Below the pieces are notes generated by a model. The model was not told the DNA's origin, did no database searches, and saw only the letters and a program-made list of their open reading frames with translations. A program made the position numbers and the translations under genes. This document shows positions 16,906 through 57,235 of a stretch of 64,000 nucleotides of DNA, piece after piece. Where the stretch lies: NCBI GenBank assembly GCA_029204225.1, contig CM055099.1:61039753-61103752 (forward strand), written 5' to 3'. This DNA comes from Diphasiastrum complanatum (Eukaryota > Streptophyta > Lycopodiopsida > Lycopodiales > Lycopodiaceae). Within the stretch, counting starts at the first letter, position 1. The number at the start of each line of letters is the position of its first letter.

Positions 16906-16917
16906 GCTCTGATACCA
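16906..16917 (-). other. Primer-binding site
   Basis: GCTCTGATACCA directly before LTR3 (reverse of TGGTATCAGAGC). Confidence 0.92.
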
Positions 16918-17620: not shown

Positions 17621-17636
17621 CTCATTGCAAGCAAGA

Positions 17637-18890: not shown

Positions 18891-19659
18891 GAAATAGGTT
18901 TGATTGACTTGAAACTCACAAAGGTCTCACACTTGCAGTGTTTCACTCAAATTTGATTTCTAATCCAACAAATGGACTTATAATCACAGTTCTATCACTC
19001 CCTCACAAAGTTGGAATGAAGATAAGATGAAGTGAAAACTACTTTCAAACAAATCTTGCCAAGAAATGGATTTGATTGTCTCTAGAAACTCACTAAGGTC
19101 TCTCTCTTGTAGTTTTTCGCTCAAATTAGATTTCTAATCCAACAAATGGACTTATAATCTCAGTTCTAACACTCCCTCACAAAGTTGGAATGAAGATAAG
19201 ATGATGTGAAATCTACTTACAATCAAATCTTGCCAAATTTGGCTATTTTTGGACAAAAAAATGACTTAATCTCTTTCTTCCTTCTTGGTGTACTTTCAAG
19301 ACCTGTTTTTAACCTTAATAGGACTTGAACTCAGCCTAGATTAATTAGATTCCATGAAACAAATTCAAATCTAATCAATGGCAAATGATCTTGGTAGATT
19401 ATCCTAGGATCTCCACCAAAAATTACACCAATAGCTCACAAATTGAATTTTTTTGAATCAAATGAATACCATGCATTAAATGCAGGTTCAGAGGTTCCCA
19501 CACATGTGGACAGTACGGATTTGGACCCCTACCAAGTTTGGGATCAAATCTCCTCACCAAAATCAAGATTCTAGCTTTTTCTCTCAATACTAGCTTTTAG
19601 CACCAAAACTTGCTAAAAATGGATTTGCATTAGATCAATGGCTTATGCTCTTGTACTTG
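18891..19659 (-). other. Leader of the duplicated unit
   Basis: Non-coding leader, nearly identical to 21,645-22,413. Confidence 0.75.
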
Positions 19660-19671
19660 GCTCTGATACCA
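19660..19671 (-). other. Primer-binding site
   Basis: GCTCTGATACCA directly before LTR4. Confidence 0.92.
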
Positions 19672-20374
19672 TGTGAAAGTACTGTACTTTAGGACCATAA
19701 ATGGATCTACAAAAGATCCACAAGAGTGATTGGATGCTTGCTTAACAATCTATCAAAAAACTAGACACAAAAAAGTTGATCTAGATTGGCAATTTGACAA
19801 ACAACAAGCATTAACAATCAAAAGCATTGATAAACATTGAAATCCGAGCCCACACGTGTGTACTACAAGATTTAGTACGGCCTTCAACCTGAGAAACAAG
19901 TAGAAATTGATTTGGTTTCATTTGGATCACAAAAACTCAATGTACATAGTGAACTAGCTTGAGATTGCCAATGAGCTCGAAAAATTTTCTTTTTTCTCAC
20001 TATGGAGAGCGGGAATACATAGCAAATTCGACTTCCATCTTGAAGTTAGGTGGATTTCCAGCATGTAATAAGGAAGTTAACTCACTCTCCTTGACCTAAA
20101 ATGAAACCCTAGTCTATTTCCTAGAGTTATGCTTGGTAGGTAGCTAGTTGGTCAAATTTTCACCTTAAACTTAGGTGTGGGTCCTATAAAGTAGGGATGA
20201 CCACCAAATAGACATGACCAACTCTCTTGACTTGACCTAACCTACATTAGGATGGGTTTCCCATGTGGCATCATGGCCTCACATGTGTGGGACCCACTTG
20301 TGTACACAATTTACACTATTCTACATGGTTTTTGATCAAGCTAGATTTGCCAATTTTTTTGGCAATTCTTCACA
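19672..20374 (-). repeat. LTR4 (703 bp), likely recombinant
   Basis: Left part like LTR5 and right part with inner-type U3. Its left side adjoins a primer site and its right side adjoins CTCAA. This is the pattern expected of an LTR made by crossover between the outer 5' LTR and the inner 5' LTR. Confidence 0.95.
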
Positions 20375-20379
20375 CTCAA
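20375..20379. repeat. Inner target-site duplication, right
   Basis: CTCAA directly after LTR4. Joining it with 13,038-13,042 restores the sequence seen unbroken at 14,769-14,773. Confidence 0.85.
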
Positions 20380-20390
20380 TGCAAGCAAGA

Positions 20391-21644
20391 TCACACTTTG
20401 CTTGCAATGCAAACATCATTCTTCAAGATGAAGCAAACACCATGCTTAAAGTGGACATCCAAACCACTTTCTAAGAGTAGACCAACACTAAGCATATTCT
20501 TGGTGATTGATGGTACATAAAGGACATTTTCTAGATCCATGCATTTTGAGGATTCTAGACACAAAGAGATGGTGCCAACACCATCTATCCTACACTCTTC
20601 ATCATTTGCAGTAAAGACAAACTTTTTAACATCATTGAATGAGTGTAAGGTTGAGAAAAAGTCCTTTTCACAAGACATGTGGGAGCTAGCCCCACTGTCG
20701 ATCCACGAATTGTCTCTTGAATTGCTATTGCTTGTTGGTGAGGATGTAGATGCCATCAAGAATACATCTACTTCATCCTCCTCCTCCTCCTTTGCAAGGT
20801 TTCCTTGTTTGTCCTCCTCCACTTGTGCTCTTAGCCTCTTGTAGCATTCAGATGCATAATGCCCCTTCTTTCCACAAAAGAAGCATTTTTGCTTTGACTT
20901 GTCCTTTGAGCTTGATGCATCATCCTCTTCTTTGGCCTCCTTTGGATGCTTCTTCTTTCCATTGGTCTTCTTTTTGCCCTTGAATGAGAAATTGGCTTTC
21001 TCATCACCATCCTGCAAATACAAGGAACTCATCCTAGATTTTGCATGGAGCATCCTACACTCTTCAGCCACTAATACACTATGAAGTTTTTCTATAGTTG
21101 GCAAAGTGTCTTGGATGGCAAAACTTTGGACCAAATTTGCAAAGTCATCTCCTAGACCATTAAGGACAATTTGTACAAGCTCTCCATCATGAATCTTCTC
21201 TCTGAAGGAAGCCAACTCCCTATTTAGAGACTTGATTCTGAGTACATAATCCTGTGCACTCTCCTCACTTCTCCTCATGCTTTGCAAAATTTGATTTCTA
21301 AGCATAAGAACTCTAGAAGTGTTGCTAGACTCATAGATTGATTTTAAAGACTCCCAAGCCTCTTTAGCATTAGTACAAGCTGATACTTCTCTCAACAAAT
21401 CATTGCTCACATTCATCTTCACACAATGAAGTGCAAGCCTAGATCTCTTCTTGTATCTAGCTAACTCCTGTGCACCTAGAGGTTCATCTTCATCTTCAAT
21501 CAAGAACTCATAAAGGACTTGGAGCACCAAGAGTGACTCCATTCTAACCTTCCAAATAGCATAATTTGTAGAATTCAACCTCTCACTAGCTTCTAGAAGG
21601 TATGCTCCAGCAGATCCCATCTTACTAGTGACTTCTACAAACAA
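20391..21644 (-). CDS. Copia Gag-protease, 417 aa open frame (outer element)
   Basis: Second intact copy of the 417-codon Gag-protease frame, differing from 17,637-18,890 by only a few codons (for example SWIDSGASSHM instead of WWIDSGASSHM, and SFREKIHDG instead of SFGEKIHDG). Zinc knuckle and protease aspartate are intact. It belongs to the outer element and is the template of the tandem duplication. The deletion after NDVCIA (about 110 bp relative to 14,785-14,893) is shared by both copies and absent from the inner element. Maintained open frames suggest recent duplication rather than long decay. Expression is unknown. Confidence 0.85.
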   Translation of the reverse strand: MFVEVTSKMGSAGAYLLEASERLNSTNYAIWKVRMESLLVLQVLYEFLIEDEDEPLGAQELARYKKRSRLALHCVKMNVSNDLLREVSACTNAKEAWESLKSIYESSNTSRVLMLRNQILQSMRRSEESAQDYVLRIKSLNRELASFREKIHDGELVQIVLNGLGDDFANLVQSFAIQDTLPTIEKLHSVLVAEECRMLHAKSRMSSLYLQDGDEKANFSFKGKKKTNGKKKHPKEAKEEDDASSSKDKSKQKCFFCGKKGHYASECYKRLRAQVEEDKQGNLAKEEEEDEVDVFLMASTSSPTSNSNSRDNSWIDSGASSHMSCEKDFFSTLHSFNDVKKFVFTANDEECRIDGVGTISLCLESSKCMDLENVLYVPSITKNMLSVGLLLESGLDVHFKHGVCFILKNDVCIASKV

Positions 21645-22413
21645 GAAATAGGTTTGATTGACTTGAAACTCACAAAGGTCTCACACTTGCAGTGTTTCAC
21701 TCAAATTTGATTTCTAATCCAACAAATGGACTTATAATCACAGTTCTATCACTCCCTCACAAAGTTGGAATGAAGATAAGATGAAGTGAAAACTACTTTC
21801 AAACAAATCTTGCCAAGAAATGGATTTGATTGTCTCTAGAAACTCACTAAGGTCTCTCTCTTGTAGTTTTTCGCTCAAATTAGATTTCTAATCCAACAAA
21901 TGGACTTATAATCTCAGTTCTAGCACTCCCTCACAAAGTTGGAATGAAGATAAGATGATGTGAAATCTACTTACAATCAAATCTTGCCAAATTTGGCTAT
22001 TTTTGGACAAAAAAATGACTTAATCTCTTCCTTCCTTCTTGGTGTACTTTCAAGACCTGTTTTTAACCTTAATAGGACTTGAACTCAGCCTAGATTAATT
22101 AGATTCCATGAAACAAATTCAAATCTAATCAATGGCAAATGATCTTGGTAGATTATCCTAGGATCTCCACCAAAAATTACACCAATAGCTCACAAATTGA
22201 ATTTTTTTGGATCAAATGAATACCATGCATTAAATGCAGGTTCAGAGGTGCCCACACATGTGGACAGTACGGATTTGGACCCCTACCAAGTTTGGGATCA
22301 AATCTCCTCACCAAAATCAAGATTCTAGCTTTTTCTCTCAATATTAGCTTTTAGCACCAAAACTTGCTAAAAATGGATTTGCATTAGATCAATGGCTTAT
22401 GCTCTTGTACTTG
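21645..22413 (-). other. Leader of the outer element
   Basis: Non-coding, same content as the leaders at 16,137 and 18,891. Confidence 0.75.
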
Positions 22414-42054: not shown

Positions 42055-42980
42055 TGTAGGAAAAATAGTGATTATTCTTCCATAGAGAACACGATGCAAG
42101 TTTGAATAAATTGAACTAATATTAGTGTCTTCAATCGCGATTGTATCTGATCTATGTACTAATAGAACAATATTAGTTCTGATTGAATATGCGTGCAGAA
42201 ATTATATGCGAAAGTAAGAGACAATTTAAGACAATTTAGACAATAAGAAACTATTGATCAAAAATGAATTTTTATAACTTTGAATCTGATTCATCAATAT
42301 ACATCTCTTGCTGTCTTGTCTCGCTGTTGTGTCTCTGATTGAGTGAGTGTGTTACAATGAGTAGTGCACATGTATTTATATTGCTATAGGACAGGTCTTT
42401 TGGCCTTTTATTTACAAGTCTTTTGGCCTTTCAATGTTGTAACAGTAGATATCTAACCGTTTACGACAATTGATATTCAAATAGACGCTCTGTTCCAGGC
42501 TCGAATTAATTCTGTTTGTGAATTATTCGCGACAATCCATCTCTTCCTCTCAGCTTTGTGTTTTGCGAATTGTTCGCGACACTTGTCTCTTTGCGACATT
42601 TTTGTTTGTCGTGAATTGTTCACGACAGATGACAATTCTTGAGCTTTGAAGAAGAAATCTAGAATATTTCGCGAACTATTCGAGATAGTTTCACGACAGG
42701 TGAGCTTGGAGAATAGTCCAGAAGATTTTGCGAATTGTTCGCGACAATTTCGCTACATCTGAGGCTTGAACAAAAAACAGAATATTTTGCGACAAGATTC
42801 TGTTTGCGAATCTTTCTAGCTTCAACAAGAAAGCCATGAGCTTCTACAAGAAAACGTTTCGTGAATTTTTTGAGTTAATTGCAAGACAAATTTTGTGAAT
42901 CCTTCACGAATCTTTTTGAGTTGGTCATGAATAGAAATGTTTCGAGTTCACGTTTAGAGAGACATAAAAAAAAAGATACA
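42055..42980 (-). repeat. Copia LTR with spaced GCGAA-TTG-TTCGC palindromes
   Basis: Starts TGTAGGAAAAATAG beside the primer site. The right end is estimated. Between 42,519 and 42,742 five versions of a 13-bp palindrome occur at 42,519, 42,565, 42,611, 42,671 and 42,730. Three are perfect (GCGAATTGTTCGC twice and GTGAATTGTTCAC). Most are followed by GACA. Confidence 0.6.
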
Positions 42981-43273
42981 ATCACTTTACTTGTAACCCG
43001 TTTATGGGTGTTTTTTTTATTGATATCACAATAGATTCTTACAATCAGCTTGTGTCCATAGTCTAATAATGGAATGCAATTTTTCTATAATGATAAAAAG
43101 ACATTGGCATGTATTTGCTGATGGTGAATCTCAATGTTCTTCCATAAGTTGGATTGTTTCGCCAATATCTCTGCATTTGATCTCGAGCTCATGTCTTTTA
43201 TGTACCTGCATAAAATTAATACAAAGTTAGTTAGAATTAGTACAAAGTTTGTATTAGAAAGTTTTGATTGAAA
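42981..43273. other. No gene seen
   Basis: AT-rich sequence between the LTR and the 3' end of the minus-strand gene at 43,274. Confidence 0.4.
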
Positions 43274-44490
43274 CTATTCATAAAAGATCGAGTGTTTACA
43301 GTTACTTATGAGTTTACCATTGAAAATGAATCTGAAGTTTGAAAGTACATCATCTTGTAGGAGCAATAGTTCTCGCCGGATGTAGTTTAGACTCCAATCT
43401 TCTTCCACCTCAACACATGTCAAAACGACATCATTGTATATAATTTCAATATTTTTTCGTTTTGAATGTCCACTGGCTTCCAAGTCTTGATCGAGTGGCA
43501 CCCATTTACCTTCATTTTTTTTCCATCTTTGATAATGGAAGCATAAGCTCAACATTTGTTTTTCAATTTGATAACGGAAGCACATGGAAGACATTTTAAT
43601 TCTGCATTCTATTTCTCCATCCGATCTTTTGTCCCAGCCTTCATCCATAAGTTCAGATAATAAACTATCTAATGAATTTTTGCATACAAACATCGTTGGG
43701 TGTACATTGACACTTGAAAAGAAATCCACAAATATATTCAAGGAGATAAACCAACTCAATCTGACTGTTTTAGATCCCGTGCTCATTTTTAATGAATTTT
43801 TTACATCGTTATATATCTTGCAACGAAAGGATTCTGAAACAATAGCATCTAATGCAATCCATTCATCACTTTCAAAGCTAGGTAATGGAATTGGTACTAT
43901 TTGTCCAAAATTTTCTTTTGTATTAGGAATGTACATTGATTAACAAAAAAAAATTCCACCATCAGCTAAATCTTTTGCAGATCTACCTCAATATTGCAGC
44001 TGTTCAATATCAGTGTGAATAACATCTAACACACTTGCTAAAGATCCACTCGGCTCCCATTCATTTACGTTGGATGGATATAAATCTGCAAGAGAAAAAT
44101 GATCAGATTGGCAAGTTTACTATTAGATATTTATGAATGACAAAAATCAAAGTATCAAAAATATCAATACTCACAGTTGTTTTTTTTGTGATTCTGACGG
44201 TTGAATCTTTGCACATTTATCTCTGAATGCATATATACATGTTGGACTAGAATTTCAGAAATAGATTTTTCTCCTGATGATGTTTTGAAATCCAAAATTC
44301 TGGCCTTCCAATAAGATCGAAATGATAGTTTTGACCTTTTTCTTTTTCGAAATGCTCCTCTTGATGATGGATGCATCAAAACCCAAGAGTTTTTTGAATA
44401 TTTTCTTGGCACCCATAATCCATTATCATATGTCTCATTGAATAGAAGCATAGAGTCGATTGAGGAGCACGGCTTCCTTGATGGTGCCAT
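43274..44490 (-). pseudogene. Two-exon gene with C-terminal beta-grasp-like region
   Basis: Exon 1 starts MAPSRKPCSSIDSMLLF at 44,490 and is basic (RKRKRSKLSFRSYWKARIL). It ends at a GTGAGT donor near 44,175. The acceptor TCTCTTGCAG near 44,088 leads to DLYPSNVNEWEPSGSLASV. A stop and a frameshift near 43,950-44,010 precede a 220-codon open frame (43,936-43,274) with PLPSFESDEWIALDAIV and a C-terminus VEVEEDWSLNYIRRELL, VLSNFRFIFNGKLIS. That last block looks like a small ubiquitin-like beta-grasp domain, but the call is weak. It is the last gene in transcription order of the minus-strand cluster that includes the H3-Ulp1 gene. Function unknown. Confidence 0.5.
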
Positions 44491-44989
44491 TCATAATTTG
44501 CATGCAAAAATCTGAGTAATGAACTATGAATATGAAAATTTGCATAGACAAAAAGCCATGAATCTGAAAAAAAGTGTTGGCAAAAATTTGAAACACTGAT
44601 CTATTTGGCGCCACAAATTAACTCTGGTTATCCTTGTTAACCATGGTTTGACAATGTATATACATTAATGGTACACCGATTTTCTCATCTCAACCATCTG
44701 TCATATTCATTTTCAATATTTTTGGATCTCTTTGGGCAGTGATGAGCTGGAAGGGTAGGCCTCATCAACCAATAGCATTTCCACATGCTGTCCGACGAAA
44801 CAACAATATATTTAAAAAGTTTTTATTTTATTTATATTTGGAAAATTCTACGTTACATAGAACCCCGAAGCTAAGGTTTCAATTGTTCCACATGGCAACG
44901 AAAATAAAAAAATAAAAAAAATAAAAAAAACATCTTTTTCAAAGGCCCTCGTCGGGCTCTAAGTTTCTCTAATGCAATATAGCACTCGG
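44491..44989 (-). promoter_or_regulatory. Upstream region of the 43.3-44.5 kb gene
   Basis: No coding. Contains ACCAATAGC (CCAAT box on the plus strand) near 44,758 and A-rich tracts near 44,905. TATA-like words occur near 44,652 and 44,830. It may hold the promoter of the minus-strand gene, and the right end passes into copia integrase sequence near 44,990. Confidence 0.3.
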
Positions 44990-45835
44990 ACACCTATTGC
45001 ATAGAAAGTTAGCACACAACAAATCTTGATCCCAAAATGGTTTTGGAAGATTAGCACCTAACCTCATAGCTTTGGCACTTTCACATAAAGTCCTATTCTT
45101 CCTCTTGGCCACTCCATTTTGTTGTGGTGTCCTTGGAGTTGCATACTCCCTCTTGATCCCATGCTCATCACAAGAAGCCTTGAACTTGGTAGATATGTAC
45201 TCTCCACCATTGTCACTCTTTAAGCACTTGATCCTTGTGGGAAATTGGTTCTCCCTTCATTCTTGAACTTCACAAAGACATATCTCTTTATTCTTTTGCA
45301 AACTTTGAAAGATTTGTCTTCTTAGAGTCAACACTCTAGAAGTCTTCTTTAACGAATCCCAAGCATCCTTTGATGAAGTACACTCATCAACTTCCTTGAG
45401 AAGTTCATTGATAACACTCATCTTTATCATGTGTAGAGCTCTTTTAGCTCTCTTGTCATACCTCAATTGTTCTTGTTGTGTTGCTGGCCTCTCCTCCAAA
45501 CCTACAACAATATTCAAAACATCATTCATCTCAAGAAGTGATTCCATCCTCACTTTCCGCAATGAATAGTTGCTTGAGGTAAGCCTATCATTGCCTTCCA
45601 ACATGTATCCACTTGATGTAGCCATGTTGCAATGACTTGATCATTCTCTTTCAACTTGTTCCAATGCACAAAGCACTCTTTTTAAATACAACAAATGTTT
45701 CCAAAAAGAAATCACCAAGATATGGAACCTCTCAATTCTCTTCTAGCACTTATATCTAGCAAATCAACACATAGATGTAGAAATCTTGATCAACCTATGA
45801 TCTATCCTCAATCTAATGATTCTTTCCACAGATCT
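44990..45835 (-). pseudogene. Copia fragment with gag joined to integrase
   Basis: Minus-strand fragment: leader (45,640-45,835), Gag N-terminus (45,625-45,257, MATSSGYMLEGNDRLTSSN, VGLEERPATQQEQ, RAKRALHMIKMSV), then a direct jump to the integrase core (SDNGGEYISTKF, TPQQNGVAKRKNRTLCE at about 45,220-45,090). Zinc knuckle and protease are deleted. Gag is the same subfamily as 9,270-10,157. The right junction near 45,831 falls immediately after the last codons of the Ulp1-like gene, so this fragment truncates or abuts that gene. No LTR remains. Confidence 0.8.
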
Positions 45836-47888
45836 CTATTCAATCAATTTTTTTATATTTTCTATATCAGTATTAGGAACTGATAAAGCAACAGCTCCTT
45901 CTATAATCTCGTCCTCCTCTATTTCGGGAAGGGCCTCAATGCCTTTTAAGACAAGAGGAATATCTGCTACAAAATTGCCTTCCTCTGTATTAGGAAGGAC
46001 TTTTATTCCTTTTTGATCATATAAAATAAGATCTGCATCCTGAACAACCTGAAAGGCTGTTAAGGCAGAAGCAGCTTCCTTTTGAGGGCCTTCGATTGCA
46101 GGTGCAATGCTTATACCATATTGGGCAAAGGTTTTGATCAACTCTTGCCGAAATCTATATACATTATCATACGGCTCAAGAGTGAACTGTCATCACAAAA
46201 TCCGAGAATTAGCAAATTACAACCAATGATAGTAGTAAATTATGAATCAGAATGAAATGAACTACAGATGAATAGATTATTACCTTTTCAATATCTACAT
46301 CCGTTTGTAAGTTATACCATTCAAAAAATAGCTTCATATTGTACAGGACAAACCATGCACAGCTAAAAGTGTCATTTTGTTGTACACACTACATATATAG
46401 AACAAAAATTGATAGAAATTTTATTTATGCTATGATGATACATTTGAATTAAAAAAAGAATACATACATATCAAAGATAAATTGAATATACCTTGAGAGA
46501 TTTAATGGTTATATCTCCAATTAAAATTGTCGTTGTCGGTATTTTCCGAAATCAAATTCTCTATGTGTATTTGCAGTTGAGTTTAATTTTTACACATAGA
46601 AATTTTGATACTCCCTCCTTATTTATCTTTACAAAAAGAATGTTTAGGCTCCAATGTTGACTGCAACAACCAAGATACAAATATCGTTAAATTCATATTT
46701 ATGAAAAAAAATTCGTTCTTATTAAAGCAATGAGGCATGAAACAATCTAGATTAAAGGAACAAAAATAAAAGAGCAATCCTTACTTATTTTCATAAGGAA
46801 TCAAATAAAATTTCACCATAGGACTGCACTCGATAAAATAGACAGCCTTCTCAAAATTGGCTTCTTTCGTCTTTACCGCTCCCATGAAAAATGGACTAAC
46901 TACAAAAATTGTACCATGGGAATCGAAATTAATACTATTCTGCAAAAAAAAAACTCCAGCCTCTACTATTGCATTTGAAATTTCTAAGGTCTTATCTTTT
47001 AGCTCGGCACAAAATTTGAGACCTAATCTAAAGCTTCTATGTGTATTTGGAAGAAAAAAATCAAAAAAAGTTGTCGAGAAGATCAATTTTGTTAGCTAGG
47101 TAGGTCTCGTATTGATTATAATGGTCAGAATAAAAGAAAACCTGGGCTGGATCGTATGGAATTCTCACAAAAATATTATATACAGGAGCAGAAACAGAAG
47201 TGGAAAGAATATTTACAGATTTCTCCGCTCTTCTGGCTAGCTCCTCTTGGGTAATCAACACTTTTGGTGATGAAACCTACAGAGGAGTTGGACAAAAAAC
47301 AGGAGGAGGACTGGGTGAAGATTCTCGATCAGAGTCAAATTCTCCAGTATCTGACTCACAGCTCAGGAAGACACAGGGTCTCTTGGCCGGGATACATCTA
47401 GGAAGAAGAGAAACAGCTGGCCTTCGAGATCCAGCCTTCTTGGGGACAGCCTGCTTTCTCTTCCTCCTAGAGGTAGTAGGCACGTTGGTTCTATCCAGAG
47501 GCAGGTCTCTGGAGGTGCTGGCATTATCAACATGCACACCAGAATATCCATCCCGAAGCCTTTTGAGAATGACGAAATCCTGACACGCTTACCATGCACT
47601 GCCAAAAGACAAGTATCCTTAAAAAACTGGGATAGAAAATCTTCTGTAGCACCCTACAAGGCTTGCATGGCTGTCACGGCAAAACTAACATCCAACCAGA
47701 GTGACATTTCGTACAGATCGGTCGAAAGGGGTTTTAGAGATCAACAATTCAATTGATCTCTGAAGTTTTCTGATCTTCCTCAACCAGACTTGCTTCCTGC
47801 CACGCCTATGGCCAGTACCAGAGGGAACATGAGAATGCGATGGCTGTACAATGGTGATGGCACGGCCGGTGGATTTGGTCTTGGCCAT
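45836..47888 (-). pseudogene. Histone H3-fold / Ulp1-like protease gene
   Basis: Four exons: 47,888-46,785, 46,660-46,492, 46,388-46,284 and 46,186-45,836. The start MAKTKSTGRA resembles an H3 tail. HRRGRKQVWLRKIRKLQRS, ELLISKTPFDRSVRN match the H3/CENH3 alpha-N and alpha-1 helices. After a frameshift, AVTAMQAL-stop-GATEDFLS, FFKDTCLLAVHGKRV match alpha-2, and after another, QDFVILKRLRDG matches alpha-3. A basic, serine/proline-rich linker follows, then a stop in the same frame, then GTIFVVSPFFMGAVK, FYLIPYEN. Exon 2 supplies NQHWSL (catalytic His of C48/Ulp1 proteases) and exon 3 QQNDTFSCAWFVLYNM (Gln and Cys). Introns have GT-AG ends and keep frame. Stops in exon 2 and the H3 part show decay. 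H3 alone is about 0.85 likely; one fused gene is inference. Confidence 0.7.
47545..47888 (-). pseudogene. Histone H3-like domain
   Basis: Sub-feature covering the H3 fold. Helix order and spacing follow H3: LRKIRKLQRSIELLI (family LREIRKYQKSTELLI), PFDRSVRN (PFQRLVRE), TAMQALxGATEDFLSQFF (TAEALVALQEAAEDYLVGLF in plant CENH3) and AVHGKRV (AIHAKRV). Divergence from canonical H3 is high, nearer CENH3-like levels. Small deletions with frameshifts lie between alpha-1 and alpha-2 and between KRV and QDF. The TAG falls at the conserved Gln of ALQEA. Confidence 0.82.
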
Positions 47889-47970
47889 CATTCTCGGAAG
47901 AAGAAAATTAACAAAAAAAAGCTTGAACAAAACAAAACTGGATCAAAACAAAAAAAATTTGCGATGAAAG

Positions 47971-48152
47971 GGCGTTTGAGATCGATATTAGCACTGAATA
48001 TCGGTTTCGAACGCAAGACCTACAAAGATTATTTGCAGAAAAGAGATGCACGCTTGAAAGCGATATTGCACAGCACGCGATATCGGACTCGAGCGCACTG
48101 TGAGAGGGCGGAAGCTTGAAAGATGAAAGAGCGCGCTTGAGAGCGATATCGA
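47971..48152. repeat. About 81-bp tandem triplicate in the gene leader
   Basis: The words GCGTTTGAGATCGATAT, CGCTTGAAAGCGATAT and CGCTTGAGAGCGATAT start near 47,972, 48,051 and 48,135. They are spaced 80-84 bp apart, with partly conserved GCAC..TATCGG..TCGA spacers. They lie in the presumed 5' leader of the H3-Ulp1 gene. Confidence 0.65.
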
Positions 48153-48195
48153 GAGCTAAAAGTGAAAATTTTGCGAAAAAAAATGAAAATTCCGA

Positions 48196-48210
48196 GGACT
48201 TATATATACA
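48196..48210 (-). promoter_or_regulatory. TATA box
   Basis: Minus-strand TGTATATATAAGTCC, about 310 bp upstream of the H3-like ATG. It lies between the CACGTG cluster and the repeat-containing leader, where a plant core promoter would be. Confidence 0.65.
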
Positions 48211-48242
48211 AAATTTTTGCACATGTGAAAAGACGGCCGAGA

Positions 48243-48458
48243 CACGTGTCGTCAGATGATTAGACCACGTGCAATGTCTGTAATGACAATGATGAGCCAA
48301 TTATGAGGCCACGTGGGCTGATACACGTGTGCGAATCCCTAATCGACGCATGTCATTCTCGCACGTAACAGATGTCAGATCAATTATACTAGGTATGGCG
48401 CATTTAATTTTGCTAATCACAAGTCGACACGTGTTCCTTTGCTAGTCCTCCACACGTG
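48243..48458 (-). promoter_or_regulatory. Cluster of six G-boxes
   Basis: Six perfect CACGTG hexamers at 48,243, 48,266, 48,310, 48,324, 48,428 and 48,453, plus an AGCCAAT word near 48,294. Plant bZIP and bHLH factors bind CACGTG. Placement 35-260 bp upstream of the TATA box suggests promoter use by the minus-strand gene. Confidence 0.75.
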
Positions 48459-48587
48459 CAATTTTTTTTTATAAATATGTCTTTTTGGGTTCGAATTTTC
48501 ACGCAAATTCACAATTGCTTTGTCAGATATCAATTTCAAGTGCGCCGCTTGCTCTCATTACATATCGTAGTGTAAAATCAAAATCTT

Positions 48588-49860
48588 ACCATATAATGTG
48601 TTATACGATCAACACCCCATGCACTCTGAACTGCATCCACAAATTCATTGGTTGTTTTCTGTATCATTTGAACATCGGTATTTGAAAATTTATCTTTTTT
48701 CAAGTATTTCACCATGTTGTCTACGTTTTCTAAACTTCTACTTTGTGTATACGAGTAGAACCTTCTTCTTCGAAATCTTGAGTTGCTGCAATAATTTTTT
48801 TCCAAATTGTGTATTGAACCTTAGATTGTTTGCCAGAATAATTTGATAAAAATCTTCGAGCTTTAGATCCTCCAATGCTCGACTTGCATGGAATATTTCC
48901 TGTTTTACCTGATAACTTGTCATCTTTTTTTATTTTAACATGGCCTTTATGTAAGCCTGCTTTAAAAAAAATTCTCTAATCTGGAAATAGCTTCCTTTAT
49001 AGAGGCCTCTGGCTCGAAATTCCATGCAAACAAGATGTAAGAATATATTATTATTTCTATAATACGCACCTTCGCATGCAATGTACAGATACGAACATTT
49101 CGTAGAGGAATCGATAGTACAGGTTTCCAATTAGGATCTTCTCAATCTCTTAATATTCATGTACTCCTTGTCATGTCTTTTGCTGTTTTCATGCAGTACA
49201 AACAAGGGTGTTTAGAGTTAGCGCCATGAGATACATTGAACATACATTTTAATGTTTTCAAATCTCCTGCTAAATGCCATTCAATGTTGAAAGTGCCAAT
49301 TCCAGGAATATTGAGTGGAACTCCCTCCATGTGATTTTTTATGGTGGCAGGATATGATGTTCTATTAAATATCCATGAGAGAATGTTATGGTCTTCTTTT
49401 AGCACCTATAAGAGAATACAAAAAAATGATTAGCCTCATAATATTAACATAGAGAAGATTTAAGATATGAAATCCATATTCAAATGATTATCCCTATTTA
49501 TTATGCAAAGGGACTGCTATACCTGAAATGCTGCCAACCACCAAATATCATTTTCTGATTGAACACTAAAATTGAGGCCTTCTGAGTCTTCTGAATTTGA
49601 AAGTGCTCCATTCATGATCATGAGACTGACTCTTTCCATTTTTTGTCCTTTTATAATTTCAGACTCATCTAACTTGAGAACAACTATCAATTTGTTATTG
49701 ACATTCTCATCTGTAATATCGTAAAAGTTTATGATGAATGTTAATAACTGATTAATGTCAATAAATAAATTGTTGGAATTGTTATATGCTAGACTTTCTC
49801 ATTTCGAGCAATACACTTCATTGATATGAGATAAATTACCAACTATTGTCTGCATACCAT
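48588..49860 (-). pseudogene. Multi-exon protein, possibly transposase-like
   Basis: An exon ending at 49,523 carries LLTFIINFYDITDENVNN, LIVVLKLDESEIIKGQKM, MIMNGALSNSEDSEG and ENDIWWLAAFQ before a GTATAG donor. The acceptor TTATAG at 49,406 continues in frame with VLKEDHNILSWIFNRTSYP, NIEWHLAGDLKTLKCMF, HGANSKHPCLYCM. Beyond two stops it continues with DPNWKPVLSIPLRNVRICTL, HAKVRIIE and a basic stretch. A frameshift leads to NMVKYLKKDKFSNTDVQM and THYM before a GTAAGA donor at 48,588. The GDLK, CxxC and LHA..RIIE order resembles large uncharacterised transposon-type proteins, but I cannot name a family. The gene continues upstream into 49,864-50,320. Confidence 0.55.
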
Positions 49861-49863
49861 GGT

Positions 49864-50320
49864 TTAACATGTCTTTTTTTTTTTAAAAGATGAAATGGTC
49901 GTGGGATCATTAGAGGAGTTTTGAGCTCCAATCTCATCATTACTAGTTGTGTAATGATGCAAAGAAGATTTCAACCTTTGGATCTCCTCCTTGAGCATCT
50001 CATTTTCATCCAAACAAGTTTTCATCTTTGTAGATTTTTCTTTGCACTCCTTTGATATTTTCCTTGATTCCTCTTCCAAATAATGTATTCTTTGCAATGA
50101 ATGTGCATTCCCATAGAGCATCAAATTCTCACAGTAACCCAAAAGGCCATTTTTACCATGACACATATAGATTATTAACTGACTCACCGAATGAAAATCT
50201 GGGTGCTGCAATAAACATGGATCAATAGGATACAATGTTCTCGATGATCATAAATCTACATGTTTTAGCTTTTCCTCCCTGTATCGGACCATATCAGAAG
50301 TTGACAATTTGGGTTGCTTT
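49864..50320 (-). pseudogene. Coiled-coil segment of the same gene
   Basis: A 123-codon frame (50,235-49,864) with YPIDPCLLQHPDFHSVSQL and GLLGYCENLMLYGNAHS, then a heptad-rich EEESRKISKECKEKS, LDENEMLKEEIQRLKSSL that should form a coiled coil. Upstream, in another frame, come LSTSDMVRYREEKLKHVDL and a stop. At 50,321 the sequence is cut by a copia LTR and resumes at 56,312. It ends in a poly-A/lysine run where a frameshift separates it from the next exon. Confidence 0.5.
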
Positions 50321-50321
50321 G

Positions 50322-50326
50322 AATTT
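50322..50326. repeat. Target-site duplication, left
   Basis: AATTT directly before the LTR at 50,327. Repeated at 56,307-56,311. Confidence 0.92.
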
Positions 50327-51016
50327 TGTGAAAAATTGCCTACATTGGCAAATCTAGCCATGTAGAATATTGTACATTTTGTTAATATTGTTTGTTGGTT
50401 ACTTGAATGGCCAAAGTGCCACTTGTACATACACACCTAAAGTAGGTTACCACGAGTCAAGAGGAGTGGTTGTGTCTATTTGGTAGTGATTCCTACTTTG
50501 TAGGATCTAGACCATGATTTATGATGAGATTTGTACCTACCATGCACCTACCAAGCATGACTCTTGGATGTAGGCTAGGATTTTCACATTAGGGCAAGAA
50601 AGTGGAGTCTACTTCCTTATTACATGCTGGATTTTCACCTAACTTTGCAAAGGAAGTGTGTTTTACTATGTATTTCCATTCTCCATAATGAGAAGATAGA
50701 AAATTTTTGGAGCTCATTGGCAATCTCAAGCTAGTTCACTATGTACATTGAGTTTTTGTGATCCAAATGAAACCAAATCAATTTCTACTTGTTTCTTAGG
50801 TTGAAGGCCGTACTACAAACTTTAGTACACACGTGTGGGCTTGGATTTCAATGTTGATCAATGCTTTTGATTGTTAATGCTTGTTGTTTGTCAAACTGCC
50901 AATCTAGATCAACTTTTTTGTGTCTAGTTTTTTGATAGATTGTTAAGCAAGCATCCAATCACTCTTGTGGATCTTTTGTAGATCCATTTATGGTCCTAAA
51001 GTATAGTACTTTCACA
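50327..51016 (+). repeat. 5' LTR (690 bp)
   Basis: TGTGAAAAATTGCC to CTTTCACA. Same length as the 3' copy. Confidence 0.97.
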
Positions 51017-51028
51017 TGGTATCAGAGC
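51017..51028 (+). other. Primer-binding site
   Basis: TGGTATCAGAGC directly after the LTR. Confidence 0.95.
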
Positions 51029-51649
51029 CAAGCACAAGAGCATAAGCCATTGATCTAATGCAAATCCATTTTTAGCAAGTTTTGGTGCTAAAAGCTAGTA
51101 TTGAGAGGGCAAGCTAGAATCTTGATTTTGGTGAGGAGATTTGATCCCAAACTTGTTAGGGGTCCAAATCCGTACTGTCCACATGTGTGGGCATCTCTGA
51201 ACCAGCATTTAATAACCCATATTCATTGGATCATAGAAAATTCATATGGTGTCAGTTTGATGTAATTTTTGGTGCAAATCCTAGGATAAGCTACCAAGAT
51301 CACTTGCCATTGATTAGATTTGAATTTGTTTCATGAAAACTAATTAATCTAGGCTGATTTCAGACCTTCTTAAAGTGGAAACCAGGTCTTGAAAGTACAT
51401 CAAAGTGAATGAGAGAGATAGAGTCAGTTTTTGTCCAAGAATAGCCAAGATTGGTAAGATTTGCTTGAGTGTAGTTTTCATCTCATCTTATCTTCATTCC
51501 AACTTGTGAGGGAGTGATAGAACTATGATTACAAATCCATCTGTTGGATTAGAACTCAACATTTGAGTGAAACACTGCAAGTTAGAAACCTTTGTGAAGT
51601 TTCAGGTCCAAACAAATCTATATCTTGTGTGTAGAATCTTGCTAGTAAG
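51029..51649 (+). other. Leader of the copia element
   Basis: Non-coding, about 620 bp. It contains sections related to the array leaders (GTGAGGGAGTGATAGAAC near 51,507, CCACATGTGTGGGCA near 51,179), supporting a shared origin of the two families. Confidence 0.7.
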
Positions 51650-52951
51650 ATGGGATCAGTGGGAGCCTACCTTCTAGAACCTAGTGAGAGGTTAAATTCT
51701 ACCAATTATGCTATTTGGAAAGTGAGGATGGAGTCACTAATGGTGCTCCAGGATCTTTATGAGTTTCTAATAGATGATGAAGATGAACCTCTAGGTGCAT
51801 AGGAATTAGTGAGATACAAGAAGAGGTCTAGGCTTGCACTTCACTGTATTAAGATGAATGTAAGCAATGATCTTTTAAGGGAAGTATCATCATGTAAGAG
51901 TGCTAAAGAGACTTGGGAATCTTTAAAATCTATCTATGAGTCTAGTAACACTTCGAGGGTTCTCATGCTTAGGAATCAGATTCTACAAAGCATGAAGAGG
52001 AGTGATGAGAATGCACAAGATTATGTGCTAAGAATCAAGTCTCTTAATAGGGAGTTAGCTTCCATTGGAGAGAAGATTCAAGATAGTGAGCTTGTTCAGA
52101 TTGTCCTAAATGGTCTAGGGAGTGGCTTTACAAATTTGGTCCAAAGCTTTGCAATCCAAGACACTTTGCCTACTATAGAAAAGCTACACAGTGTATTAGT
52201 AGTTGAAGAGTGTAGGATGTTGCATACCAATGCAAGAATGAATGCTATTTCTCTGCAGGATGGTGATGAGAAAGCTAATTTCTCATTCAAAAGCAAGAAG
52301 AAGACCAATGGCAAAAAGAAGCACTTCAAGGAGACCAAGGAGGAGGATGAGGCTTCAAGCTCAAAGGGCAAGTTCAAAGACAAGTCCAAGTACAAATGTT
52401 TTTTCTGTGGAAAGAAAGGACATTTTGCATCAGAATGTCTCAAGAAGAAGAAGGCACAAGAGAGCAAACAAAGCAACATTGCACATCAGGAGGAAGAGGA
52501 AGATGAAGAGTCATCCTTGATGGTTTCCAACAAACCACCATCATCCAAGAGCAACACCAATGATTCTTGGTGGATTGATAGTGGGGCAAGTTCCCACATG
52601 ACATATCAAAAGGACATATTCTCCACCTTACTTTCTTACAATGACTTAAATAGATCAATCTATACTGCAAGTAGTCAAGAATGTAAGATAAGTGGAATAG
52701 GAACAATTCCCTTGTATGTGGGATCATCCAAAAGGATGAATCTAGATAATGTTCTTTATGTTCCTAAGTTAACCAAGAATTTGCTTAGTGTTGGCCAGTT
52801 AATGGATAATGGCCTAGATGTACAATTTAAGCATGGAGTTTGTTCCATCCTTAGAAATGATGAATGTATAGACAAAGGCTTTAAGCAAGGTAGATTATTT
52901 AAGCTTGATGCTAATATTGCAGTGGAGAGTGTTAACTTGGCAAAGGTGTAG
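51650..52951 (+). pseudogene. Gag and protease of the full-length element
   Basis: Start MGSVGAYLLEPSERLNSTN at 51,650. Gag region LALHCIKMNVSNDLLREV, ETWESLKSIYESSNTSRV, lysine-rich linker, zinc knuckle CFFCGKKGHFASEC (near 52,400), then protease SWWIDSGASSHM (near 52,565) and the GAG-pre-integrase start NVLYVPKLTKNLLSVG. One in-frame TAG at 51,800 stands where related copies have Gln (GAQEL), and another TAG ends the frame at 52,951 just before LSKVELWHKRLGH. The Gag is clearly homologous to the 417-codon frames of the array. Confidence 0.9.
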
Positions 52952-54098
52952 CTATCAAAGGTGGAACTGTGGCACAAAAGGTTGGGCCACCCCAACTACA
53001 AAGCCATGGAATCTATGGCTACAAAGGAGCTTGCAGTTGGACTCCCCAAGCATTTGTCAAAGTGTGGGAAGAGATGTGAAGCATGCAGCCTCTCAAAGGC
53101 TCACAAGCTACCCTTCTCAAGATCTACATCAAGATCAAACTCTCCTCTTGAACTCATCCATTCGGATGTTCATAGTTTTTCACATGAGTCTAATGGTGGT
53201 GCCAAGTACTATGTAATCTTCATTGATGACTATTCTAGATTTTGTTGGATGTACCTCTTGTCTAGCAAATCAATGGTGTTTGATTCTTTTGTAAAGTTCA
53301 AGACTTTGGTAGAAAATCAACTTAGTACCAAGATTAAGGTATTAAGGAGTGATAATGGAGGTGAATTGACTTTTGTATTTCTAATGGCATAAAGAGGGAG
53401 TTGTCATGTCCATACACCCCTCAACAAAATGGAGTGAGTGAGAGAAGAAATAGATCTCTTTGTGAGTGTGCTAAGGCCTTAAGGCTAGATGCTTCTCTAT
53501 CCAAACCATTTTGGGGTGAAGCAATAACTTGTGCTAACTATTTGTGCAATAGATTGCCAAACCAAGCCATTGGAGGAATCACACCATTTGAAGCTCTATT
53601 TGGAGAGAAGCCCAATCTCAAAGATCTCAAAGTTTTTGGATCCACTTGCTATGTACACCAATCCTTGGATAAGAGAAGGAAGGATGATGCAACATCCATC
53701 AAAGGCATCTTTGTGGGATATGGTGAGAATAGCAAAGGTTATAGAGTCTTCAATCCCATCACTAGCAAGGTGATAGTGAGTAGGGATGTTATTTTTGATG
53801 AAGGACATGCTTGTGATTTGGATGATAATGCTACTAATCATCTTGATGCCAAGGATCATGCTAGGATGGAGGAGGAGCTTCCAAGTGAAGAAGAACTTGA
53901 GGATCCACCTCAAGATGCAAGAACTCCAAGAACTCCAAGAAGATCTACAAGGGCAAGATCCGAGCCATTGAGGCTCACCTATGATGGTCAAGGTGATCAA
54001 AGGGAAGGCTCATCATCTTTCACATCTTACACCTTTCTTACTTACAAGCATCTTCATAGCCAACATGCTATGAAGATGCTTGTAAGTCTAAAAGTTGG
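52952..54098 (+). pseudogene. Integrase of the full-length element
   Basis: Inserts element DNA into the genome. Zinc-binding start LWHKRLGHPNYKAM and CGKRCEACSLSKAH. Core with LIHSDVHSF, IDDYSRFCWMYLL and RSDNGGEL. A frameshift near 53,380 breaks it before CPYTPQQNGVSERRNRSLCE. The C-terminal part has FGEKPNLKDLKVFGSTCYVH and GIFVGYGENSKGYRVF. The last part is broken again near 54,060 at a 20-bp perfect palindrome whose right arm is misplaced in frame. Confidence 0.88.
54040..54087. repeat. Perfect 20-bp hairpin with 8-nt loop
   Basis: Arms 54,040-54,059 and 54,068-54,087 are exact complements around CCAACATG. It lies at a frame break between integrase and RT, which suggests a templated inverted duplication. 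Confidence 0.9.
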
Positions 54099-55654
54099 AT
54101 GGATGCTATGCAAGTAGAGTATGATGCTTTTATTGAGAATCATACTTGGGATCTTGTGGATCTTCCTCAAGGGAAGAAACCTCTTGATTGCAAGTGGGTG
54201 TTTAGATTGAAGTATAATCAAGATGGATCAATAAGCAAGCATAAAGCTAGGCTTGTTGCCAAAGGTTTTTTACAAACCAAAGGCATTGACTATGATGAGA
54301 CTTTTGCTCCTGTGGCTAAGCTTGTTACTATCAGGTTGATCATTAGTCTTGCTACAACCTTCAATTGGGAGCTATTCCAACTTGACTTCACAAATGCATT
54401 TCTCAATGCTTATTTGGAGGAAGAGATCTACATGAGGCAACCCGAGGGCTTCATCAAGGCAAAGCATGAAGGAAAGGTGTGTTTTTTGAAGAAGAGCCTT
54501 TATGGGCTCAAGCAAGCACCTAGAGCATGGTACTCTAGGCTAAACTCTTTTCTCATTTCCATCAATTTTGTAATGAGTGCCTATGATCCATCATTGTATA
54601 TAAGTTTTCATGATGGCATGATCATTATTCTTGTTTTGTATGTAGATGACATTATCTTGACTGGTAATGATCTAGATGGAATTAGAGATGTGAAAATTGC
54701 TTTAGCCAAAGAGTTTAAGATGGTAGATCTCGGCCTATTGAGCTTCATTCTTGGAATAGAGGTTATTAGAGGATGTGATTTTAGCTTCATTTGTCAATCT
54801 AAATATGCTACATCCATCCTAGATAGATTTGGAATGAAGAATTGTAAAGGCATTGAGACACCAATGGAGCAACATGTAAAAGCATCTATTGGTTGTGATG
54901 AAGCATCCTTTGAGGACATCACATTATATAGAAGGCTTATTGGCTCCTTGATCTATTTAACTATAACTAGACCTGATCTTAGTTATAGTGTTGGAAAGTA
55001 AAGCCAATTCATGCAAAGTCCTCTAGTTTCACATTGGAAGATGGCCAAAAGAGTTCTTAGATACATTTCATTCACTAAGAATTTTGGTATTTTGTATAGA
55101 GGAACTAATCTTGGCTTAAGAGCCTATAGTGACTCGGATTTTGCAGGTGACAAAGTGGATAGAAGATCAACAAGTGCCTTTGCCACCTTTCTATGTGATG
55201 TAGTAGTATCATGGCTTTCCAAAAAGCAAGATATCATCTCCCTATATTCCACAGAATCCGAATACAAGGCCTTGACATCAACATGCAAGGAGGTCTTGTG
55301 GCTCAAAAGGCTATTGGTGGAGCTTCATGTCATGGAGGAGGAGATCCCTATCATCTAATGTGACAACCAATCAGCCCAATCACTTGCAACTAATCCTACA
55401 TTCCATGCCAGGAGCAAACACATCGAAATTGCTCATCATTTCGTGAGGGAAAAAGTGCAAGCTAAAGAGATCAAGCTCCAACACGTGCCATCATCAAGTT
55501 GCTTGGATGATTTGTTTACTAAACCTTTACCTAAAGATTCATTTGTCAAGCTTAGATCTTCAATTGGAGTTATTGATAAAAGCATTGTGATCTCCAAGGC
55601 TAGATTTGAGGAGGAGTGTGAAAAATTGCCTACATTGGCAAATCTAGCCATGTA
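54099..55654 (+). pseudogene. Reverse transcriptase and RNase H of the full-length element
   Basis: RT copies element RNA into DNA; RNase H removes the template. RT is a 300-codon open frame with CKWVFRLKYNQDGSI, GIDYDETFAPVAKLVTIR, FQLDFTNAFLNAYL, SLYGLKQAPRAWYSRL, the catalytic LYVDDIILTG and KGIETPMEQHVK. A TAA near 54,999 replaces Leu in KLSQFMQ. RNase H follows with AYSDSDFAGDKVDRRSTSA, STESEYKAL and, after another TAA near 55,356, CDNQSAQSLA and HARSKHIEIAHH. It ends FEEECEKLPTLANLAM, running into the LTR. All catalytic motifs remain, so decay is limited to point lesions. Confidence 0.92.
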
Positions 55655-56306
55655 AAATATTGTACATTTTGTCAATATTGTTTGTTGCTTACTTGAATGG
55701 CCAAAGTGCCACTTGTACATACACACCTAAAGTAGGTTACCACGAGTCAAGAGAAGTGGTTGTGTCTATTTGGTAGTGATTCCTACTTTGTAGGATCTAG
55801 ACCATGATTTATGATGAGATTTGTACCTACCATGCACCTACCAAGCATGACTCTTGGATCTAGGCTAGGGTTTTCACATTAGGGCAAGAAAGTGGAGTCT
55901 ACTTCCTTATTACATGCTGGATTTTCACCTAACTTTGCAAAGAAAGTGTGTTTTACTATGTATTTCCATTCTCCATAATGAGAAGATAGAAAATTTTTGG
56001 AGCTCATTGGCAATCTCAAGCTAGTTCACTATGTACATTGAGTTTTTGTGATCCAAATGAAACCAAATCAATTTCTACTTGTTTCTCAGGTTGAAGGCTG
56101 TACTACAAACTTTAGTACACACGTGTGGGCTCGGATTTCAATGTTGATCAATGCTTTTGATTGTTAATGCTTGTTGTTTGTCAAACTGCCAATCTAGATC
56201 AACTTTTTTGTGTCTAGTTTTTTGATAGATTGTTAAGCAAGCATCCAATCACTCTTGTGGATCTTTTGTAGATCCATTTATGGTCCTAAAGTACAGTACT
56301 TTCACA
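55617..56306 (+). repeat. 3' LTR (690 bp)
   Basis: TGTGAAAAATTGCC to CTTTCACA, preceded by the polypurine tract TTTGAGGAGGAG (55,605-55,616). Confidence 0.97.
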
Positions 56307-56311
56307 AATTT
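56307..56311. repeat. Target-site duplication, right
   Basis: AATTT, matching 50,322-50,326. Confidence 0.92.
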
Positions 56312-56470
56312 CTCATCCTGAGCGGAGCATATTCTGGTGACAGATCCACATGAAGATGATAAAGCTTTCTCATCGGTACAGTAGTATAGTAACAAACAAC
56401 ACAATGACAATAACAAAGCTGGAGATGGCACTAACGACTCTGCTGGAGATAGAGATGGTGTAGGCTTTTT
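56312..56470 (-). pseudogene. Upstream piece of the split minus-strand gene
   Basis: Removing the copia element and one AATTT joins this stretch to 50,321. The minus frame MRKLYHLHVDLSPEYAPLRM here continues without a break into the LSTSDMVRYREEK frame. The start of the gene is not clear. TATA or promoter signals were not found upstream. Confidence 0.5.
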
Positions 56471-56709
56471 TCAGAAATGTCACTCCTAATTCAAATTTTT
56501 GAGTGTTCCCAACTATTGGGAGGGAATATTGCAGCATTTTGAAAAATTATATTTTAACTGTGGTTAAACACCAGTGAAGTTTGATGTGACTAAACTAAGG
56601 TGCATTCATTTACATGGAAAGTAGTGCGGGCAGATGCGTAAAGAATTTAGAAAATGATATTATAATTACTTTATAGTTATTTTTCTCTCTCCTACATGGC
56701 ATTTCTTAT
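56471..56709. other. No gene seen
   Basis: AT-rich spacer between the split gene and a copia fragment. Confidence 0.4.
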
Positions 56710-57235
56710 AGGGCCCTCTTTTGGTCCATATTTTCTCTAATGGATGGAAGGATATCTTTTATGATGCTATTCAAGAGGAGGCCGAGTGTCAACTTTCTTA
56801 CAACTTTTGGATGTACTTGCCATGTCAATATAACTCTTGATGATAGGACAAAGGAGACTCCATATTCAAGGAAAGGTATATTTGTTGGATATAGTGAGGT
56901 GAGTAAAGCCTACAAGGTTTACATTCCTACTAGTGATAGGTGATTATTGGTAGAGTTGTCATTTTTGATGAGGGGAACATTTCAAAAGTAACATTCTTGA
57001 TGGATCTAATATTCTTGTGGATGAATCTAACATTCTTGATGTTGACGTAAAGGACCCTACTTTAGATGGTGATGATGATGGACCTTCATCAAGTCAAAAG
57101 CCAAGGAGAACATCAAGGGAAAGATAAATGCCTTCAAGGCTCACATATGATGAAAAAGGTAAGCAAGTGGAAGTGACTCATTTTGCTTTTCTCAAATGCT
57201 TTGGTAAATCTTCTTATGTCAAGTAGATGGATGTT
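56710..57235 (+). pseudogene. Copia integrase C-terminal fragment
   Basis: ISFMMLFKRRPSVNFLTTFG, TCHVN, then SRKGIFVGYSEVSKAYKVY match the integrase C-terminal region of copia (FVGYxxxSKxYRV). Later codons (KARRTSRE-like, SRLTYDEKGKQVE) continue with stops. No flanking LTR. Source family not determined. Confidence 0.8.

Follow-up and report, generated by a model that had tools for sequence, protein, structure and literature searches.

The window examined here is a stretch of 64,000 nucleotides from Diphasiastrum complanatum (Lycopodiopsida; GenBank assembly GCA_029204225.1, contig CM055099.1, positions 61,039,753 to 61,103,752 of the forward strand), with position 1 its first letter. On the minus strand, from 47888 to 45836, it contains the decayed copy of a predicted four-exon gene in which a histone fold of the H3 type is joined to a putative protease of the Ulp1/SENP (C48) kind, and the gene lies within a large DNA transposon. 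The exons are as follows.

46785..47888, minus strand: exon 1, with the H3 fold, a basic/Ser-rich linker and the N-terminal protease part; frameshifts and stops (placed by the ATG at 47888, the donor GT at 46784, Pfam Histone matches on two fragments and the unbroken exon 1 of relatives)
46492..46660, minus strand: exon 2, decayed, with the catalytic His motif HWSL (AG directly before 46660, donor at 46491)
46284..46388, minus strand: exon 3, with QQNDTFSC, that is, the glutamine and the putative catalytic Cys
45836..46186, minus strand: exon 4, the C-terminal part, open up to its stop (acceptor before 46186)

The region was read on the minus strand and divided into stop-to-stop frames, of which six fragments were tested against Pfam. 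One of these (47685-47942, minus) matches the Histone model PF00125 with E 4e-7 and 30.8 bits, thus passing the cut-off of 26.4, and another (47363-47653, minus) reaches 20.7 bits (E 5e-4), which is under it. The remaining four are without a Pfam match. No single fragment matches the Peptidase_C48 model, and because the copy is broken, the protease cannot be called from window fragments taken one at a time. The naive frame of exon 1 has 14 stops in addition to the frameshifts. Downstream, 46656-46492 matches an exon-2 probe (tblastn), and the exon 4 region has an open frame of 117 amino acids (45836-46189), with the exon showing 90% amino acid identity to a probe that is a blend of copies. All three introns (46784-46661, 46491-46389, and 46283-46187) start with GT and end with AG, and their phases, read against intact relatives, are 2, 0, and 0. 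An original prediction, made from the letters of the window alone, had claimed an H3-like fold on this strand, HWSL and QQ-x5-C motifs on separate exons, three frame-keeping introns, and decay by stops and frameshifts. Each of these is recovered here, the motifs in 46660-46492 and 46388-46284 and the intron coordinates exact to the base.

The more demanding claims of that prediction, that the histone fold and the protease belong to one gene and that a live relative should exist, were evaluated using the genome from which the window comes (1.74 Gb in 5,176 contigs). Counts from these genome searches are lower bounds, as only the best candidates were scored. Two intact copies were found, one in the lineage of the window (L042, intact over four exons, 590 amino acids) and one in a related lineage, family B (L018, intact over four exons, with introns of 107, 111, and 99 bp and a spliced product of 470 amino acids). 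Their proteins share 38% identity across 502 aligned columns (E 8e-96), and the intron places are identical, with phases 2, 0, and 0 in both lineages. The spliced L018 protein matches both Histone (97.3 bits, 1e-27; cut-off 26.4) and Peptidase_C48 (42.2 bits, 1.1e-10; cut-off 20.7), and L042 matches Histone (69.0 bits, 5.5e-19), with C48 under the cut-off (12.9 bits, 0.097). Three further window-lineage copies (L040, L041, and L043) have an open exon 1 and a stop or frameshift later. As query we used the exon 1 of another copy, L036, whose 376 amino acids begin at the start Met and end just ahead of intron 1, so that they cover the histone and the N-terminal protease part. There were 10,235 candidates at first look and 109 that were scored, and these 109 gave 110 rows. 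When stops are read through, all but one of the rows extend in a single frame over 294 or more residues of the query; five, including the locus of L036 itself, cover residues 1-376 free of stops. All six splice dinucleotides are canonical in 7 of 13 window-lineage sequences (the window included); in the other six, a site is missing or a dinucleotide is changed where the script placed it.

It is very improbable that two neighboring and separate genes merely look fused. We found nothing in favor of this possibility, although in the window copy the stretch joining the two domains is interrupted. In intact copies, the histone and the N-terminal protease part occupy one uninterrupted exon, and the reading frame stays open across the three GT-AG introns up to a single stop, which refutes the two-gene alternative at the level of sequence. 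A histone and a protease that are always separate would have told against the original prediction, and in the window lineage and family B a single exon joins them. We conclude from these gene structures that the histone and the C48-type protease are encoded by one predicted gene of four exons with conserved splice sites.

The wider set of relatives was defined by a search with PF00125, which gave at least 153 matches (6,325 candidates, 150 scored). Thirteen of these, at 163.7-165 bits, were taken as host H3 genes, and the three that were translated encode canonical H3. The rest form a long H3-like series, nearly all at 95-110 bits and many within long open frames. From the H3-like loci we fetched twenty, a non-random sample picked for long open frames, which comprises 12 loci of a family A, 7 of family B, and L026, which contains a gene of the window lineage (family C). 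The 34-amino acid QQ exon of the window has at least 150 scored matches among 4,797 candidates, at 88%-100% identity, and six of eight QQ-exon loci (2.5 kb each) have histone-fold frames upstream (the exceptions are L029 and L034). The 150 scored matches of the family B exon 3 are spread over all of the large contigs, C1-C23.

In family B, exons 2, 3, and 4 are found on the same strand downstream from the histone in all seven of the histone-fetched loci (tblastn). Family A (L009-L011, L016, L019-L024, L027, and L028) has an H3-like gene without a detectable protease: None of the 12 loci gave a match to the L018 and L042 protease exons (tblastn, E 0.01), and a motif scan was likewise negative. 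The family A gene, where readable, contains a long insert rich in Pro, and its H3-like tail has the form M-x-x-x-KQTAR-D/G-PR in 10 of 12 loci (exactly MARTKQTARDPR in five, variants in five). L026 consists of nested elements. Its window-lineage histone gene continues into a terminal repeat of the family B type (22 bases exact), and further along there is a second H3-like gene, of another lineage, with its own exon-2-like stretch (CVKMNFANNTHKHIDSL). Given that an H3 gene is present in each of the families A, B, and C, it is, on this sequence evidence, a lasting part of a transposon group rather than a one-off capture. A viral origin was also considered and set aside, as one scan of viral contigs gave no relative of the L018 protein.

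By sequence comparison, the fold is of the H3 type and not H4, H2A, or H2B. The name H3 is borne by 59 of the best 60 among 200 Protein Data Bank (PDB) matches to L018, and the other is named only “Histone domain-containing protein.” Identity of the fold to host H3 is 52%-56% for family B, 43%-51% for family C, and 51%-53% for family A. The motif KRVTIMPKD is kept in the aligned B and C sequences except L026 (KRVTIMSKD) and reads KRVTILPKD in family A. At alpha1, all aligned A, B, and C sequences have IPRAPF and host H3 has IRKLPF; Arabidopsis CENH3 has IPAASF at this position (LLIPAASF). The tail starts with MARTK in 6 of the 12 window-lineage copies in which it is readable, and the Lys at the MARTK place is kept in 10 of the 12 (L040 and L041 being near-identical). 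In a small tree based on a short alignment, families B and C are joined with support of 97. In this tree, whose CENH3 and CENP-A entries are provisional, the support for grouping with H3 versus CENH3 is 50; host CENH3 was not told apart. The predicted proteins resemble canonical H3 and CENH3 in the fold from alphaN to alpha3, in KRVTIMPKD (most aligned copies), and, in families A and C, in the ARTK-type tail start, and differ from them in the shortened tail and C-terminal protease extension of families B and C.

Membership of the protease half in C48 is firm for family B as judged by model scores, both L018 (42.2 bits) and the catalytic exons of L014 (40.7 bits) being over the Pfam cut-off of 20.7. 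In the window lineage, the assignment rests on homology to family B because its own model scores are under the cut-off. The original prediction of a C48-type protease therefore stands directly for family B and, for the window lineage, by way of that homology. All eight distinct matches of the L018 protease half to PDB sequences up to E 10 are Ulp1/SENP enzymes (best, a Ulp1-like SUMO protease, 6dg4, E 0.001; yeast Ulp1, 1euv, 0.0015; SENP2, 1tgz, 0.01), and in the three alignments shown, HW and Q-x5-C line up with the corresponding Ulp1/SENP motifs. Intact copies from the two lineages have the His (of HW), the Gln, and the Cys (of Q-x5-C). Some copies (L012, L017, L025, and L035) are without the Cys or have an altered Trp or His motif.

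The original prediction also proposed a mobile element, and the gene does lie within elements bearing terminal inverted repeats. The family B end, which was found by aligning copies, has 1,324 exact occurrences, compared with none for a reversed control, and a search for terminus matches in the genome gave 2,101 (again, none for the reversed control). Pairing of ends yielded complete family B elements of 9.45 kb (L037), 8.1 kb (L038), and 5.4 kb (L039, which has no match to the histone-protease gene). In L037 and L038, the 35-bp terminal repeat CATTAGAGGAGTTCTCAATATCAAAAAGACCCTTT has no mismatch at either end, and in L039 it has one. In L037, the order of genes is orfX (plus), histone-protease (minus), a zinc-finger-like gene (plus), and a transposase-like gene (minus), and L038 shares its terminal repeats, gene set, and gene order. 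The zinc-finger-like gene was named by eye from CPYCNKKC and is without a Pfam match; it was not seen in the window copy (tblastn). Flanking sequences match in one of five complete elements, over 3 bp (TCA, L037). No matching flanks were found for L038, L039, L018, or the element ending in L055/L056, and none of the five has an 8-bp duplication. From this architecture, we take the gene to belong to a DNA transposon that carries several genes, is bounded by terminal inverted repeats, ends sharply within flanks unrelated to one another, and occurs in many copies. That this is a host gene rather than a transposon gene was ruled out, because it sits inside inverted-repeat elements with a common gene set.

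The ends of the elements are strongly clustered on C1. Among the first 100 places listed, the intervals C1:64.97-66.68 Mb and C1:95.0-98.6 Mb hold 28 and 21 of the exact family B ends, and C1:48.43-50.24 Mb holds 16 of the 31 listed window-lineage C1 places (14 of the 16 in one orientation). These clusters could represent segmental duplication or a special chromatin block. A tandem satellite was considered and rejected, as one 4-kb sample from a C1 cluster held an element end and no tandem repeat. Separately, a window-lineage terminal repeat (two mismatches) occurs ~1.3 kb downstream from host H3 genes in a duplicated stretch (L002, L003, L044, and L045; C11 near 51.25 and 51.30 Mb), possibly a trace of histone DNA and element coming together.

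The window copy of the element spans 42956 to 56742 (13.8 kb, of which ~6 kb is a copia insertion). In addition to the histone-protease gene, it comprises the following features.

44944..44974, minus strand: terminal inverted repeat of the window lineage, exact CATTAGAGAAACTTAGAGCCCGACGAGGGCC
56711..56742, plus strand: diverged terminal repeat on the transposase side, ending in ..TTTTCTCTAATG, read by eye
42956..44974, no strand given: inverted end segment of the element, originally joined with the gene at 45830
43277..44490, minus strand: third open reading frame of the element, orfX, in two pieces, in the segment that is inverted relative to other copies
49867..50247, minus strand: transposase-like gene, coiled-coil-like N-terminal part, 40%-42% amino acid identity to L037 and L038
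49520..49798, minus strand: transposase-like segment 1 (..VVLKLDES..), 66%-71% amino acid identity to L037, L038, and L039
49160..49405, minus strand: transposase-like segment 2 (..WHLAGDLKTLKC..CLYC), 77%-80% amino acid identity to L037, L038, and L039; also in family A
48581..48975, minus strand: transposase-like segments 3 and 4, two overlapping frames
56320..56458, minus strand: further upstream piece of the element, 96% identical to L026, cut off by the copia insertion
50327..56306, plus strand: copia-like retrotransposon within the element and not part of the gene, with two 690-bp long terminal repeats 98.4% identical to each other; gag/pol frames by eye

The repeat CATTAGAGAAACTTAGAGCCCGACGAGGGCC has 1,009 genome matches at two or fewer mismatches (reversed control, none). 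At the other end (56711-56742), the outer 11 bases are the same and the rest is partly alike; this repeat was not listed by a search allowing seven mismatches. The inversion is indicated by L042, in which position 2238 corresponds to window 45830 (minus) and position 2251 to window 42956 (plus). Within the inverted segment, the orfX piece at 43277-43939 has 50%-61% amino acid identity to family B orfX, and 43303-44513 matches L037 495-1730 at the nucleotide level; orfX and the histone gene are on opposite strands in L037 and on the same strand in the window. The transposase-like part at 49867-50247 is oriented and placed with respect to the histone gene as it is in L037 and L038, and it has a 95% nucleotide match to L026, in which the match to 56320-56458 is followed by a 9-bp gap and then a match to 50325-49931. 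Other features were noted in passing: copia-like frames, by eye, at 44969-45640; a 24-nt direct repeat present six times (reference TTTTGCGAATTGTTCGCGACACTT, copies 75%-96% identical) at 42514-42914, just outside the inverted element end; and, at 13959-21680 (minus), three sets of copia-like gag frames with a spacing of 2,754 bp (starts at 21680, 18926, and 16172), resembling tandem duplication of part of a retrotransposon.

The transposase-like protein has no Pfam transposase match, whether tested as window pieces, as L038 pieces, or as the 361-amino acid open frame present in two family A loci (L011 and L023), and for the last of these there is also no NCBIfam transposase match. Pfam includes models for hAT, MULE, CACTA, and KDZ. 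The sole PDB match is Nictaba, at E 0.7. Two motifs, KLD and a DLKTLK with CxxC after it, are common to families A, B, and C, and a VH-x-C-x(4)-E motif is common to A and B (the E is lost in L039). We infer from these motifs a putative D, D, E triad.

Selection was evaluated from uncorrected ratios of nonsynonymous to synonymous differences (pN/pS), with a codon bootstrap of 2,000 draws. Between L018 and L042, the ratio is 0.41 (0.30-0.55) for the histone fold and 0.47 (0.36-0.60) for exons 2 and 3, compared with 0.65 (0.44-0.92) for the linker and 0.72 (0.60-0.87) for the N-terminal protease part, and values for L018 and L043 are similar. The histone fold and the catalytic exons are thus under purifying selection between lineages. 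These between-lineage ratios are probably too high because silent sites are near saturation. One family B pair was compared (L018 and L025), with ratios of 0.15 (0.07-0.28) for the histone fold, 0.46 (0.18-1.16) for the linker, and 0.83 (0.42-1.94) for the N-terminal protease part.

What might such a protein do? The original prediction suggested that it could allow a mobile element to change modified chromatin where it inserts or acts. By analogy with known transposon proteins (see below), it is most likely an anti-silencing factor. We would give even chances to the full proposal, that a large DNA transposon, present in the window as a dead copy, encodes an H3-Ulp1/SENP-like fusion protein that acts in this way. 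The H3 fold would place the protein into or onto chromatin (in H3-H4 dimers or nucleosomes, perhaps replacing host H3), where the protease part would strip SUMO or a related modifier from nearby silencing proteins or histones. Removal of the modifier would keep the chromatin of the element expressible, weakening silencing to the element's benefit. The working mode would resemble that of the VANC-Ulp1 (KIU) proteins of Vandal elements, with a histone in place of a sequence-specific DNA binder. More specifically, and tentatively, the transposon's own H3 variant may be built into nucleosomes with the SUMO-protease as a C-terminal arm, which would make it a histone-tethered anti-silencing enzyme of multi-gene transposons of no recognized superfamily, with the H3 gene as a standard part. 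Transposons are silenced via chromatin, and few cases are known of how they resist. If the proposal is true, a transposon-made histone with a deconjugating protease would give direct access to this struggle over silencing and could serve naturally as a tool for editing chromatin locally.

Several findings weigh against the anti-silencing proposal. In particular, Ulp1 has a catalytic triad that includes Asp, and the residue at that position is Asn (LNS/MNS) in all 13 window-lineage sequences (out of frame in the window), in six of seven family B loci (the seventh is unreadable), and in the second element of L026. A scan demanding no particular residue found Asp there in no readable copy. This speaks against a standard C48 triad. 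Enzyme activity may be low or absent, or a Cys-His-Asn triad like that of papain may serve instead. The C48 scores of the window lineage are all under the cut-off of 20.7 (L042, 12.9 bits; L030, 18.2; L043, 19.6). Family A keeps its histone without a detectable protease (none in 12 loci), thus relatives manage without the fusion. Most of the sampled copies are broken or unproven as intact, intactness being shown only for L018 among 7 family B loci and only for L042 among 13 window-lineage loci. Finally, recent copies show little constraint: For L042 and L043, pN/pS is 0.66 (0.31-1.74) for the histone fold, 0.92 (0.48-2.34) for the N-terminal protease part, and 1.73 (0.74-8.30) for the linker, with exons 2 and 3 at 0.25 (0.09-0.67). 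The corresponding values for L042 and L036 are 0.47 (0.26-0.89) for the histone fold, 0.69 (0.38-1.49) for the N-terminal protease part, and 0.65 (0.28-1.87) for the linker. Weak constraint in young copies is expected because copies drift after insertion.

Three other functional explanations were weighed. The protein could be a transposition helper, in which the protease matures or deconjugates the element's transposase or its partners and the histone fold is only a tether to DNA or to a dimer partner, leaving host silencing unaffected. Some Ginger1 elements have Ulp1 on the transposase itself (PMC2836005), some Cryptons have a C48 peptidase beside the recombinase (PMC3212892), and a transposase-like gene is present in the same element here. 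However, a full H3-type fold is kept, with KRVTIMPKD in most aligned copies, which exceeds the need of a generic tether, and we regard a helper role as unlikely, if worth keeping in mind. It is also conceivable that the fusion is passenger cargo, which arose when a captured histone happened to join a protease, itself captured or resident, and which was amplified although it has no use. Fungal hATs do carry captured H3, and in Pseudocercospora fijiensis all are inactivated save the original gene (PMC6710886); the majority of copies sampled here are broken as well. Against this, both domains and the splice sites persist, under constraint, across two lineages that are only 38% identical, and both lineages have intact copies, making mere cargo rather improbable. 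Similarly improbable, in our view, is chromatin targeting, in which a histone derived from H3 or CENH3 steers the element to, for example, centromeres, and the protease loosens chromatin for insertion. The alpha1 sequence LLIPRAPF is closer to the plant CENH3 LLIPAASF than to the canonical H3 LLIRKLPF, and termini do cluster on C1 (for family B, a stretch of 1.7 Mb has 28 exact places among the first 100 listed, and for the window lineage, 16 of 31 listed C1 places are within 1.8 Mb). But the two lineages cluster at different C1 places, family B exon-3 matches are dispersed over C1-C23, and the CENH3 grouping has the low support, two provisional entries, and indistinct host CENH3 noted above.

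With regard to known systems, both transposon-borne H3 (in fungal hATs) and transposon-borne Ulp1/C48 are already in print, and the fusion of the two was not found in our search of open-licence PubMed Central (PMC) literature. H3-carrying hATs are described in Pyrenophora tritici-repentis (PMC3538342) and in Pseudocercospora and relatives (PMC6710886). They are alike in being DNA transposons with terminal inverted repeats, an H3-like gene, and tens to hundreds of copies. In the fungal elements, the captured H3 lies beside a hAT transposase, target duplications are 8 bp (in P. fijiensis), and the word protease is absent from PMC6710886, whereas here H3 is fused to the protease, the transposase is without a Pfam match, and no 8-bp duplication flanks the five elements. 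Ginger1 (PMC2836005) and Cryptons (PMC3212892) share a transposon-encoded C48/Ulp1 domain but have other recombinases; the word histone is absent from the former paper and the term histone fold from the latter.

The closest parallel to the proposed anti-silencing function is offered by the KIU (Kaonashi) genes of Vandal MULEs, in which VANC has an added Ulp1 domain (PMC13317346). VANC proteins are anti-silencing factors, and through VANC the elements it targets lose DNA methylation (PMC5735166). No VANC domains (DUF1985, DUF287) were found in L018 or L042, for which Pfam gives only histone-fold families and C48. Both systems are transposon accessory proteins with an added Ulp1 domain. They differ in that the partner domain here is a histone fold rather than VANC, in an element with terminal inverted repeats and a transposase without a Pfam match, and it is by analogy with KIU that the protein predicted here would have its anti-silencing role.

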